From assembly GCA_947626185.1 (NCBI GenBank), contig CANQRD010000015.1, forward strand, positions 1-36,365: a DNA stretch of 36,365 nucleotides, read 5' to 3'. The position numbers and the translations under genes were made by a program. Positions within the stretch are counted from its first letter, which is position 1. Each line of letters opens with the position of its first letter. Of the stretch, positions 31,639 through 36,365 are shown piece by piece. The stretch comes from an uncultured Flavobacterium sp. GTDB lineage: Bacteria > Bacteroidota > Bacteroidia > Flavobacteriales > Flavobacteriaceae. The notes under the pieces are model-generated. The model was given only the letters and a program-made list of their open reading frames with translations. It was not told where the DNA came from and ran no database searches.

Positions 31639-32196
31639 TTATTGAGAAATTGTAAAAATAACAGTTCCTTCATAACTATCTGCTGGCAAAGTAACAGATA
31701 CACCAGATAATTTTAATTGTGTTTTAACTTCTGAGAAAGAAAGGCTATTTCCAATTCCTAAAACACCAGCTGTTTGTATTGAAAATAGCAAAAATGAAGA
31801 AGATAATAATGGGGTATAATTTTGTCCTCCGACTATTTGTGATGAACACAATAGACAAATCCCTCCAATTAAAGACCTCCCTCCAATTCGTTTTATCTGT
31901 ATTTGCAAATTATTATTCCAATTAATAGGTTGAAAATTCACTAAAACCTGAACCTTATCTGTTGCAAGTAAATTTAGTAGTGGTCCTGGAAGTGTTCCAT
32001 TCAAAGTAAACAAATCTTCAGCACTTTCATAAGTACCAGCATAATCTGCACCAGCTATTGTAATATCTGGTATTGGTACTTGCCAATTATTACCAATCAC
32101 AGAAATACTTTGCGCTTTTACATGAATAATATTAGTCATTAAGCAAAACAGAAAAAATAAGGCTTGCGTCATTTTTTTATTAAATACTAAATACAT
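31639..32196 (-). CDS. small secreted protein, candidate fibre subunit/tip component (subunit C)
   Basis: Signal peptide (LFFLFCLMTNIIHVKAQ); beta-rich; C-terminus LPADSYEGTVIFTISQ; CLLC pair; last gene of the chaperone/usher-like cluster. Start may instead be ATG 32172. Confidence 0.6.
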   Translation of the reverse strand: MYLVFNKKMTQALFFLFCLMTNIIHVKAQSISVIGNNWQVPIPDITIAGADYAGTYESAEDLFTLNGTLPGPLLNLLATDKVQVLVNFQPINWNNNLQIQIKRIGGRSLIGGICLLCSSQIVGGQNYTPLLSSSFLLFSIQTAGVLGIGNSLSFSEVKTQLKLSGVSVTLPADSYEGTVIFTISQ

Positions 32197-32200
32197 AATC

Positions 32201-32746
32201 TTAATTACTTATGGTATAGATAATAGTTACTGTCTGATTGTTTAGAGCTCTAAGCTTAGAATAATCACTTATTTTTGCTTCTAAATTTATCTGATGCCCA
32301 TTATTTGGTCCAATTCCTGTATAAGCACCTCCTATTTGTGACAAAATAACTTTTGGAGAGGTAGCGAGCAAAACATTTCCATTGCTTTGTCCTAATGCAC
32401 CTTTACCTGTAATTGAGTTTCTTGCATTTATTATAAAATCAATTCCAGGAACAGCATGATCTATCTGAGCAGAAATAGTTCTATTACTAGTATTTACTCC
32501 AATTGCCGAAGTATAATTGAGCCAAGTACTAGTATTGGCATTGGAGTTAATTAATGGCTCACCACTCTGATTAGGACCATTAAATTGAAATAACATTGAT
32601 TGACTTGTCGATTTTATTGCAAGTAAAGCTACTTCTTTTAATCTCACAAACACTTGTTTCCCTTCACTTGACTGCGCTTGTAATGTTGTTAAACTAGAAA
32701 ATAAAAACATTATTACTAGAACACCTATCTTGTATTTTGTTTTCAT
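32201..32746 (-). CDS. small secreted protein, candidate fibre subunit (subunit B)
   Basis: Signal peptide ending LQAQ; beta-rich body (STWLNYTSAIGVNTSNRTISAQI); C-terminus KISDYSKLRALNNQTVTIIYTISN resembles the truncated edge gene. Confidence 0.6.
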   Translation of the reverse strand: MKTKYKIGVLVIMFLFSSLTTLQAQSSEGKQVFVRLKEVALLAIKSTSQSMLFQFNGPNQSGEPLINSNANTSTWLNYTSAIGVNTSNRTISAQIDHAVPGIDFIINARNSITGKGALGQSNGNVLLATSPKVILSQIGGAYTGIGPNNGHQINLEAKISDYSKLRALNNQTVTIIYTISN

Positions 32747-32759
32747 GTATTACTTATTT

Positions 32760-35405
32760 TTAATACCCCACTTTAATAGCTGGTTGTAATAGCTTTATTT
32801 TTGGTTCTTTTTTGCTAATATGTACATTAATCTCTTGAGTTTCATTAGACATCAACGCTATGTCAAATTCGTCATTATCTATTTTAAACTGTGAACCTAA
32901 ATCATGACCATAAATCCTTACCTTCCAATTACCAGGCATTAAATAAGTGAAATAAAAAGGTTCGTTTATTGTACATATTTTACTAAATATTTGTCCAGAA
33001 GATGATCTTACTTCTACTACTACCTTTTGATTAAAAGTATCATCTTTTAAATTATTAACTAAAAAAGAACCTTTAATTGCACTAGCTCTAACAAGATTAA
33101 ATGTAATAAAATTTTCCCCTTCTTCTATTGTAATACTAGTTGGCATACCAATGGTTGGTATATCATCAATATCTAATGTTAGCCTATCTATTTCTAAAAA
33201 ATAATTTCCAGGAACAAGATTATTAAATTTAAAATTTCCGTTCTTATCTACAATCGCAAGTTGTTGACCTAATAGCAATTTTATTCCTTCTGTATTATAA
33301 TTAGACATTATTCTCCCTGCTAAAGTACCACGTTCTTTAATTTTTTTTACGGGTACATTAATATTTACCGTGTACTTTAGTAAAACTGAAAAATCTTTAT
33401 TTTGAATTTCCTCTTTAGCTAAAGTATTCCTAGACTGCAAATAAAGCTGATGATTGGGTAAAAACTGATAAATAATACCTATATCTAACAAATTACGATT
33501 TAAATAATAGTCTTCTAACGCGTGTGAGTTTTGATACATCGCGTTAATAGATAATTCATGTCCAATTTTTGTTTGAAATCTTCCTCCAAATAAATAATAA
33601 GATCTTAAGTCATCTCCATATCTTTTAGACTGATTGTAACTAGAAAAAGCACTAACTACGGTGTTATTTTTACTATACTCTAAACTAGCTGTATACATAG
33701 ATGAATTACCTTCGTTTTTGATTAAATAATTATTGGTTTTTGCCCAATAAGATTGCAAAACACCTCTCCAGTTTTTAATTTGTATTTGCGTTTCTAAACG
33801 AATAAAATTTTCAGCATAATTAAATAACTTCTTTTCCATTTTATCATCTACTTTTTGATTACCTCCAAAAACAGAAAAGAGATTGTTGTTATTTATTTTG
33901 TATCTAATTCCCATTTGTACATTTTGCCTTGTAGGAGCTTGTCCGACAATGGAATCTTTCTGAATATTTTTGTAATCATTTAAAGTATTTAATATAACAG
34001 AAAACTTATCAGACAGCCGATAGTTAACATTAGTTCTATAATATTTAGTGGCATAAAAGTATCCTTTAAAATAAGGTGATGCATAAATATAGCTAAAGTT
34101 AGCGTTGACTTTTCTTCTTACATATTCGGCATTAAATACCCAAGCATATCCATTATCTTTCTCGGCTTTACTCAATGAAAACTCTCCTTTAAGTTTAATT
34201 GATTTACCCAGTTTCCATTGAGATTCAATAAACTGAAGATCTTGATTTTCGTTTTCTTTTTTCAATAAATAACCTATCTTAATATAATTATCCTTCTGAA
34301 AATTATATTTGGTAGCCACCATAAATTCATTTTGTACAGATGAAAAAAAACGAGGAACATTATAAAAAGTAAAAACTTCAAATTTATTCAACTTATAACT
34401 AAGTTCTGCTCCAGTGCCGTATCTTGCTTGTTCAGTTAATAAAGATGATGAAAAGTTTTTATCTCCTACGTGAAAATAAAACTTTTCACTCTGATAATTA
34501 AAGTAATATTCTGAGTAGTTAGAAAAAGAAGAAAAGTCAAATCGATCTGGTCCGAAGAACCTAAACGCATATCTATCTCTTTTTAATGGATCAAAATTTC
34601 CTTCTCCTTTTAATTCATATTGTATTGCACTTTCACTTTCTCCCAATCTATTTCTAAAAAGCAACATTGTAGATGCTTCTATTGGAAATCGGTAATAAAT
34701 ATCTTCCTTAAAACTCAAATTCGAAATGATATTGACTTTTGAAGAAGCTCTTGCTGAAATCACAGAATCTTGCTTAACTAATGCTTCTAATTGTAAATAA
34801 ACAGAAGAAGGATATAAAGTTTTAGCATTAGTTATTTTTGAAATAACAACTTGTTTTTGTTGTCCTGGCAAAAGTTGAATAGAATCATTTTGATTGATTT
34901 GTGTACCTTTCGGATAATTCAACTTTATATTCTCCACTGAATTACCGTTATTGGCTACCAAAAAAACTGCACTAATTGTATCACCAGCTTTAATGAGTTC
35001 ATTTTTAGAGAAAGATGAAACACTTATTTTCGACACTTTTGCCACATTTAATGTGACAGGAAAAATAATTTCTTCTGAAAATTGAGCAGATAAAAACTGA
35101 AAATCAATAATATGATTTCCAAATGAAGTATTATTGGTTATAAATAGTTGACATAATATTATTTTAGATTCGTTAGCAGCCAAATCTATTTCTTCTGCAA
35201 AATTTATCAATTGCCAATTCGTTGGTACAACAATTTTTTGTTGCAACGATAAAGAAACAGCTTGATGATTTGTAATTTTTAAAGGTAAAGAATATATTTT
35301 CCCTGGCTGATAAGTTTCTTTTTTCTGAACAATTTCCAAGGAAATATTTTGAGCCCAAAAGCAGATAGGTAATAATAAAAATAAAACAAGTATTGTTTTA
35401 TTCAT
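32760..35405 (-). CDS. large outer-membrane usher-like protein (N-terminal Ig-like domains, central predicted beta-barrel, C-terminal CarboxypepD_reg/SdrD-B-like domains)
   Basis: 881 aa; signal peptide MNKTILVLFLLLPICFWAQ; ITNHQ.../VANNGNS Ig-like repeats; region about 230-690 rich in alternating aromatic beta-strands (YSEYYFNYQSEKFYFHVGDKNFSSSLLTEQARYGTGAELSYKLNKFEVFTFYNVPRFFSS); NGNFKFNNLVPGNYFLEID and FYFTYLMPGNWKVRIYG modules. Confidence 0.6.
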   Translation of the reverse strand: MNKTILVLFLLLPICFWAQNISLEIVQKKETYQPGKIYSLPLKITNHQAVSLSLQQKIVVPTNWQLINFAEEIDLAANESKIILCQLFITNNTSFGNHIIDFQFLSAQFSEEIIFPVTLNVAKVSKISVSSFSKNELIKAGDTISAVFLVANNGNSVENIKLNYPKGTQINQNDSIQLLPGQQKQVVISKITNAKTLYPSSVYLQLEALVKQDSVISARASSKVNIISNLSFKEDIYYRFPIEASTMLLFRNRLGESESAIQYELKGEGNFDPLKRDRYAFRFFGPDRFDFSSFSNYSEYYFNYQSEKFYFHVGDKNFSSSLLTEQARYGTGAELSYKLNKFEVFTFYNVPRFFSSVQNEFMVATKYNFQKDNYIKIGYLLKKENENQDLQFIESQWKLGKSIKLKGEFSLSKAEKDNGYAWVFNAEYVRRKVNANFSYIYASPYFKGYFYATKYYRTNVNYRLSDKFSVILNTLNDYKNIQKDSIVGQAPTRQNVQMGIRYKINNNNLFSVFGGNQKVDDKMEKKLFNYAENFIRLETQIQIKNWRGVLQSYWAKTNNYLIKNEGNSSMYTASLEYSKNNTVVSAFSSYNQSKRYGDDLRSYYLFGGRFQTKIGHELSINAMYQNSHALEDYYLNRNLLDIGIIYQFLPNHQLYLQSRNTLAKEEIQNKDFSVLLKYTVNINVPVKKIKERGTLAGRIMSNYNTEGIKLLLGQQLAIVDKNGNFKFNNLVPGNYFLEIDRLTLDIDDIPTIGMPTSITIEEGENFITFNLVRASAIKGSFLVNNLKDDTFNQKVVVEVRSSSGQIFSKICTINEPFYFTYLMPGNWKVRIYGHDLGSQFKIDNDEFDIALMSNETQEINVHISKKEPKIKLLQPAIKVGY

Positions 35406-36195
35406 TCTTAATATTTAAATCGATATTAATTCCAAAAACATTTTCATCATTTGTACTAGCATATAAACTTGCTAAATAGTTGCCAAATGGCAAAGATGCT
35501 ATTTCTATTTTGAAACGCTTTGAATTATTGGGTAATAAACTAAGCGTATCTGACTTAAATTCAGCAATTTTATTTCCAGAATTTTTATCAAAAACTTCTA
35601 AAGTATTTACTACGTTATGAAACAATTCACCTGTATTAGCAATATCAACCTCTAAGTAATTTTTATCAGCATTTTTAGTCAACGAAACATTGGTAAATGT
35701 TAATTGGGAATTGGCTTCTAAATTATTATTAGTAATAATCTGAATAGCGAAACGAACTATTGTTTTTATTTGCACTCCCTCTTTATTATTTGAAGCTAAT
35801 TGTTCGTCTACTGGTTCCACTAAAATTACACTCCAGTTACTACCAGGTAATTCTTGCTCTGGGGTATGAATTTCGTATACTACGTCTACTGTAGATTTTG
35901 CCGCAACCTTTACTAAATCTGAACTTAATTTAATCCACTTTAAATTACTTCTTTCATTCTCACCAAAATCTAGATAAGAAGAAATTCCCTCTGCATTATA
36001 GCTATAATCTTTTTGATACAACTTTACGTTTTGAGAAGTATTACCCGTATTTTGTATACTAATTTTTCCTTTGTAAACACTTTTACCATTTATAGCTATT
36101 ATGTGCGTTAATCCATTAGTCACAACAATATTAGCTTTACAAGATAATACAGCAATAAAAAACAACAATAAACTATAAGTAAATTTATTTATCAT
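35398..36195 (-). CDS. PapD-like periplasmic chaperone candidate (two beta-sandwich domains)
   Basis: Signal peptide; YKGKISIQNTGNTSQNVKLYQKDYSY...WIKLSSDLVKVAAKSTVDVVYEIHTPEQELPGSNWSVILVEP resembles fimbrial chaperone domain 1; second domain LEVDIANTGELFHNVVNTLEVFD...LPFGNYLASLYAS. Overlaps the usher-like ORF by 8 bp. ATG 36195 preferred (ORF-track 36231 is upstream of the signal peptide). Confidence 0.6.
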   Translation of the reverse strand: MINKFTYSLLLFFIAVLSCKANIVVTNGLTHIIAINGKSVYKGKISIQNTGNTSQNVKLYQKDYSYNAEGISSYLDFGENERSNLKWIKLSSDLVKVAAKSTVDVVYEIHTPEQELPGSNWSVILVEPVDEQLASNNKEGVQIKTIVRFAIQIITNNNLEANSQLTFTNVSLTKNADKNYLEVDIANTGELFHNVVNTLEVFDKNSGNKIAEFKSDTLSLLPNNSKRFKIEIASLPFGNYLASLYASTNDENVFGINIDLNIKNE

Positions 36196-36294
36196 ACATA
36201 AAAAGTAAGAAATCTTAGGTAAATAGAGCAATTATTATAAATACTAAAAGTAGCATACAACTAAGTATACCACTTACGTTTTTAATGATATAAC

Positions 36295-36365
36295 TTATTC
36301 AGTTATTGTATATGTTACAGTAACCGAAGGTGTTGATGCTATTAAAACCGAATAATCATTAATAG
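36295..36365 (-). CDS. truncated 3' end of a further subunit-like gene (subunit A)
   Basis: Reverse strand reads ...INDYSVLIASTPSVTVTYTITE*; parallels subunit B C-terminus ISDYSKLRALNNQTVTIIYTISN*. Confidence 0.55.
   Translation of the reverse strand, partial: INDYSVLIASTPSVTVTYTITE

Follow-up and report, generated by a model that had tools for sequence, protein, structure and literature searches.

The operon at the end of this contig probably encodes a chaperone-usher-like fibre pathway, equipped with a WxLIP-type chaperone and working by donor-strand exchange. The argument rests on the observed gene content, its recurrence in other genomes and the homology of the chaperone C to WxLIP proteins, together with the predicted folds of the outer-membrane protein U and the subunit S4; function is inferred, with no expression or microscopy data behind it. 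That the locus might be a distinct chaperone-usher-like pathway was the core of the original prediction, which is supported by the U barrel with its fold match to FimD/PapC and by the recurring gene order, the fibre itself being an inference.

Locus and gene layout

The window (the whole stretch of DNA analysed) is the entire 36365-bp contig C15 from a draft genome of Flavobacteriales type (2.43 Mb), and it carries the operon at its right end in the order S1 (truncated)-C-U-S4-S5 (Table 1). The gene coordinates confirmed what had been read from the sequence beforehand: five genes on the minus strand in this order, with gaps of 4 bp (S5/S4) and 13 bp (S4/U) and an overlap of 8 bp (U/C). The truncation of S1 is due to the end of the contig and not to biology; the remaining fragment, INDYSVLIASTPSVTVTYTITE, with its stop ending at 36295, matches the profiles of S1 and S4 with E-values of 7e-6 and 3e-6, respectively (search against one sequence). 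The open reading frame of C would span 35398-36231 with a TTG start, but the alignment favours the ATG at 36195 (265 aa). To the left of S5, from 31532, lie genes judged by sequence to belong to iron/B12-type ABC transport, and none of the relatives that we inspected showed such genes next to the operon. At the opposite end of the window, a tRNA (1-77) is cut off by the left contig end.

Table 1. Features of the operon, in window coordinates.
Feature	Description	Position	Strand	Basis or remark
S1	Pilin-like subunit, last 22 residues (C-terminal) only; proposed major subunit	36295..36365	-	Remainder past contig end
Stem-loop	In S1-C gap; proposed partial terminator/processing hairpin	36248..36275	-	Folding
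C	Secreted two-domain WxLIP (DUF916/DUF3324) family chaperone without membrane helix	35398..36195 (265 aa)	-	Pfam, PDB profile matches
U	Outer-membrane barrel, usher-like, flanked by beta-sandwich domains (N-terminal; two C-terminal)	32760..35405 (881 aa)	-	AF2, Foldseek
S4	Pilin-like subunit, S1 homologue	32201..32746 (181 aa)	-	hhalign, AF2, Foldseek
S5	Small secreted protein; proposed exposed/specialised subunit beside S4	31639..32196 (185 aa)	-	CxxC, fusions

Conservation of the operon in Bacteroidota

When named genomes were scanned with a profile, 118 relatives came up and 80 were kept, mainly from Chryseobacterium and also from Elizabethkingia, Myroides, Paenimyroides, Flavobacterium, Sphingobacterium and Arundinibacter; a scan of genome contigs with a single sequence returned no relatives. 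The U barrel gene served as search bait, and gene order was scored as kept where two small genes, C and U occupied the same positions. By this measure S1-C-U-S4-S5 recurs in 76 of the 80 relatives, so that the operon is not a chance arrangement, and nearly all of them share the 8-bp C/U overlap. A separate protein search (148 relatives) located full-length U outside the source genome in five genomes, one of them Myroides guanonis; all share the five-gene order, save that one locus (L007/L021) starts too near its contig end for S1 to be visible. Of 395 genomes taken from the order, 41 hold a full-length U.

Further afield, a phylum-wide sample of Bacteroidota yielded divergent U proteins in several families. 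A C-type chaperone adjoins U in 16 of the 17 divergent loci inspected, accompanied in most cases by one to five small secreted proteins that carry a terminal strand such as TVTLTLTN or HTITFTIANQ. Searched on its own across 299 genomes of the phylum, the chaperone profile matched in 25, and many of these matches coincided in genome and locus with those of U. A recurring gene order had been put forward as a check on the original prediction, and the order does recur, both in 76 of the 80 close relatives and, as the pairing of C with U, in the divergent loci. Two sets of candidates were discarded: L009-L011, in which only residues ~690-820 matched and which resemble CarboxypepD_reg-like domains of TonB-type receptors, and a 2734-aa protein (G319/L190).

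Several individual loci deserve mention. In Chryseobacterium (L086, L103 and L048) a whole rRNA operon adjoins the operon in convergent orientation on the S5 side, downstream of that gene at about 12.1-17.9 kb of the locus, which is probably why many draft contigs end just past S5. The operon has apparently been lost in L022 (G107), where a degraded U remnant with a stop (about 9.3-9.7 kb) sits behind a 781-aa gene of the kind that precedes the intact operon in L019. A paralogous operon is found in the Weeksellaceae loci L188 and L189, with a U open frame of about 930-937 aa, a C-type chaperone (E 1e-16) and an additional secreted protein of 336-351 aa, L189 also having different small proteins. 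One genome (G389) holds two full-length copies of U (C1:97736-100453 and C1:4239312-4242029), and the long U variants of L176 (1025 aa) and L185 (1388 aa) combine a lipoprotein-like signal at the start (e.g. VFSACVNDE in L176) with an N-terminal extension.

The chaperone belongs to the WxLIP family

By sequence, C is a WxLIP homologue and not a member of the PapD family. The Pfam family WxLIP_HBD matched it over the cut-off (1.7e-7) and WxLIP_PGBD below the curated cut-off (0.0016), while both matched all 37 related chaperones, at best with 3.8e-13 and 1e-6; C has the DUF916 and DUF3324 domains in WxLIP order, with the reservation that PGBD stays under the cut-off in the window protein. Its profile matched the Enterococcus faecium EfmWxLIP1 structures 9i25, which is a solved WxL-WxLIP1 complex, and 9i1y in the PDB (E 5e-11), making C a homologue of solved two-domain WxLIP structures, and aligned with ten Gram-positive WxLIP proteins at a probability of 98% over 247 columns (hhalign). 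A C-terminal transmembrane helix is present in 10/10 Gram-positive WxLIP proteins and in none of the 37 Bacteroidota chaperones. No Pfam match to the PapD family PF00345 was listed for the 37 chaperones, the family gave no match in 140 genomes of the order, and hhalign detected no similarity between C and FimC (probability 0.5). C had been described as PapD-like, a label that fits its two-domain layout at most and not its sequence family. In the absence of binding data, the functional names PGBD and HBD (peptidoglycan and host binding) are not carried over to C.

A hairpin strand of WxLIP has been predicted to become ordered on WxL, parallel to a WxL strand, and to complete its sandwich (Hassan et al. 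2023, PMC10599100). By our comparison, PapD-type chaperones rely on the same principle in donor-strand complementation. In C, domain 1 closes with a strand that reads G-[VI]-x-I-x-S-[IV]-[VI]-R-Y-A-[IV]-Q-[VI]-I-T, with G, R, Q and T invariant, an alternating pattern that would suit donation, although we offer this as a suggestion only. Outside Bacteroidota, a Klebsiella pneumoniae plasmid record (CP069367.1, 101758-102277) contains a segment with 94% identity to an Enterococcus faecium WxLIP, a mixed assembly being the probable cause.

U has an usher-like predicted fold

The AF2 model of U, built on 45 sequences (pLDDT 82, pTM 0.59), comprises, from the N-terminus, two beta-sandwich regions (35-226), a barrel of 24-26 strands (241-680) and, at the C-terminus, two sandwich domains (683-864), with limits read by hand from the strand list of the model. 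When compared with the PDB in Foldseek, ranks 1-10 were all FimD/PapC (E 1.6e-13 to 1.5e-11), mostly aligned over about 780 columns at 9-11% identity, and the best non-usher barrel reached 2e-7. TM-scores to ushers are near 0.3. Barrel-only usher entries scored about 1e-7 to 1e-6, no better than other outer-membrane barrels, so the usher signal rests on the series of barrel, CTD1 and CTD2. The predicted model contains the usher fold of an approximately 24-strand barrel followed by two C-terminal beta-sandwich domains. Of the barrel and plug looked for in U, the barrel and the usher-like C-terminal domains were found, with FimD/PapC as best match; no plug-sized insert was seen between the barrel strands of the model. 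Sequence comparison gave no link to ushers: Pfam PF00577 matched in none of 145 genomes of the order and is not among the families matching the 45 U members, no sequence or profile similarity to FimD was detected (hhalign probability 0.9), and the sole Pfam match of U is a weak carboxypeptidase-regulatory-like one in its C-terminal part.

Small secreted subunits

S1, full-length in the relatives at about 184-195 aa, is homologous to S4 (hhalign probability 100, E 8e-58), whereas S5 is unrelated to either by profile comparison. Pfam and WxL profiles gave no match for the subunits, and sequence searches of the PDB with S1 and S4 (S5 was outside this search) gave none. The AF2 model of S4 (pLDDT 80) retrieved the CFA/I subunit CfaB at Foldseek ranks 1-6 and TasA and an archaeal thread at ranks 7-8, and 34 of its top 50 fold matches are chaperone-usher pilins, weak as these are (best E 4e-3, none below E 0.001). 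Of the further searches, one in NCBIfam found nothing, and one in a viral fold library returned mostly generic Ig-like arrays and porins.

All 53 aligned S1, S4 and S5 proteins end 2-3 residues past a [YFW]T[IV] strand, as expected if the chaperone were to hold the C-terminus, and the N-terminal segment shows alternating hydrophobic residues (HTIxIxIP). Natural fusions of S4 and S5 occur in two relatives, Chryseobacterium tagetis (L080) and Arundinibacter roseus (L104), and join the last strand of S4 directly to the N-terminal segment of S5. The fusions suggest that S4 lies next to S5 in the fibre and that the N-terminus of S5 may fill the groove of S4. S5 has a conserved CxxC and is the fastest-evolving and least conserved protein of the operon (its mean identity is 51%, that of the other proteins 65-79%); we propose it as an exposed or specialised subunit.

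A hairpin downstream of S1

The gap between S1 and C (roughly 97 nt) bears a hairpin in divergent relatives as well. On folding the gap from 38 relatives, the median z was -2.88 and 68% fell below -2, whereas in the two controls, the beginning of the C gene and the sequence following S5, the shares were 0% and 22%; in the window the effect is modest (z -1.8). In pap-type operons a hairpin 3' of the major-subunit gene leaves its mRNA in excess. By analogy, we propose that the S1-C hairpin is a partial terminator or processing element that keeps S1 in excess, and S1 is the probable major subunit. The hairpin, the constant C-terminal strands and the S4-S5 fusions together fit a donor-strand fibre with S1 as its major subunit.

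Proposed mechanism and alternatives

Donor-strand chemistry, export direction, fibre formation and subunit roles are all inferred, without models of complexes. S1, S4 and S5 would enter the periplasm as incomplete beta-sandwich subunits, where C, as a soluble two-Ig protein of the WxLIP family, would lend a strand to each beside its C-terminal strand. The donated strand would probably be the last of domain 1 (GVxIxSxVRYxIQVIT), and it would keep the subunit folded and prevent it from polymerising. U would act as an outer-membrane barrel whose N- and C-terminal domains lie in the periplasm: it would receive the C-subunit complexes, put the N-terminal strand of the following subunit in place of the strand of C and thread the chain outward. 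S1, whose mRNA would end in the hairpin before C, would probably be the major subunit, and S4 and S5 adjacent minor subunits.

The alternative that survives best, though we think it improbable, is a dedicated exporter: U and C would release the three subunits individually, as soluble or surface proteins, and not polymerise them. A usher-like barrel lacking a plug and an S5 unlike S1 and S4 would be compatible with this, but S1 and S4 are homologous, S4 resembles pilins that polymerise, hydrophobic residues alternate in the N-terminal segment, and the S4-S5 fusions suggest adjacency. Still less likely is that U and the Ig-like proteins are unrelated to fibres, their fold matches being generic and their function another one (e.g. 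polysaccharide binding or export). The low TM-scores of U and the weak E-values of S4 leave room for this, and the PDB is rich in Ig folds and barrels; yet three components separately point to donor-strand systems, and the operon layout and the hairpin fit a fibre pathway. Least favoured, by a little, is a Gram-negative WxL platform with peptidoglycan-binding small proteins tethered by C and U as an accessory porin, for which the WxLIP homology of C and the frequent small WxL gene directly before WxLIP in Gram-positive clusters would speak, but which is opposed by the lack of any WxL-domain (PF13731) match over the cut-off in 14 operon-bearing genomes, the subunits without a WxL profile match, the membrane helix missing in 37/37 chaperones and the presence of U in C-adjacent loci elsewhere, even though U was the bait for the 80 relatives.

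Relationship to known systems

The donor-strand fibre pathway that we favour can be set beside three known systems. Type V fimbriae (FimA/Mfa1) are likewise surface fibres of Bacteroidota and are thought to use donor strands; the operon differs in showing no lipoprotein precursor or protease route and in encoding a usher-like barrel and a chaperone. With classical and class 5 (CFA/I, CS1) chaperone-usher systems it shares subunits that end at the last strand, a two-domain periplasmic chaperone and a barrel with periplasmic domains, the best folds being FimD/PapC for U and CfaB for S4. Unlike them, it has no Pfam match to PapD or usher, takes its chaperone from the WxLIP family, has a U without visible plug and with two N-terminal beta-sandwich domains, and belongs to a different phylum. 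The parts of class 5 fimbriae also lack sequence similarity to other chaperone-usher parts and work in the same way (PMC4133393), a precedent by which the operon, though by sequence outside both the chaperone-usher family and the WxL system, most likely works like a chaperone-usher system.

The WxL/WxLIP clusters of Bacillota (PMC10599100) have a homologous chaperone (about 250 residues, hhalign probability 98), a small secreted partner gene upstream and a predicted strand donation, whereas the operon is without the WxL domain, the C-terminal membrane helix and the large WxL protein, and adds the barrel U. A WxL/DUF916-like system had been named as a competing analogy; it is not a rival and supplies half of the explanation, C being a WxLIP homologue, while both the WxL domain and the WxLIP membrane helix are absent.

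Implications

No description of the operon or of Bacteroidota WxLIP proteins was found in the open-access literature, and an earlier one cannot be excluded because subscription journals and preprints lay outside the search. With a chaperone from a family that is known in Gram-positive bacteria, the operon probably represents a route to bacterial surface fibres that has not been described. We raise only tentatively, and consider rather unlikely, the wider idea of an undescribed chaperone-usher-type clade widespread in Bacteroidota, whose WxLIP chaperone would mean that the Gram-positive WxL/WxLIP and the Gram-negative chaperone-usher systems go back to one common strand-donating chaperone.

Chaperone-usher fibres are treated as Gram-negative and are defined by the PapD and usher families; since Pfam finds neither in this order, a large set of Bacteroidota fibres may have been overlooked. 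The Gram-positive role of WxLIP so far rests mostly on in silico inference, and the operon offers a testable one, that of a strand-donating chaperone.
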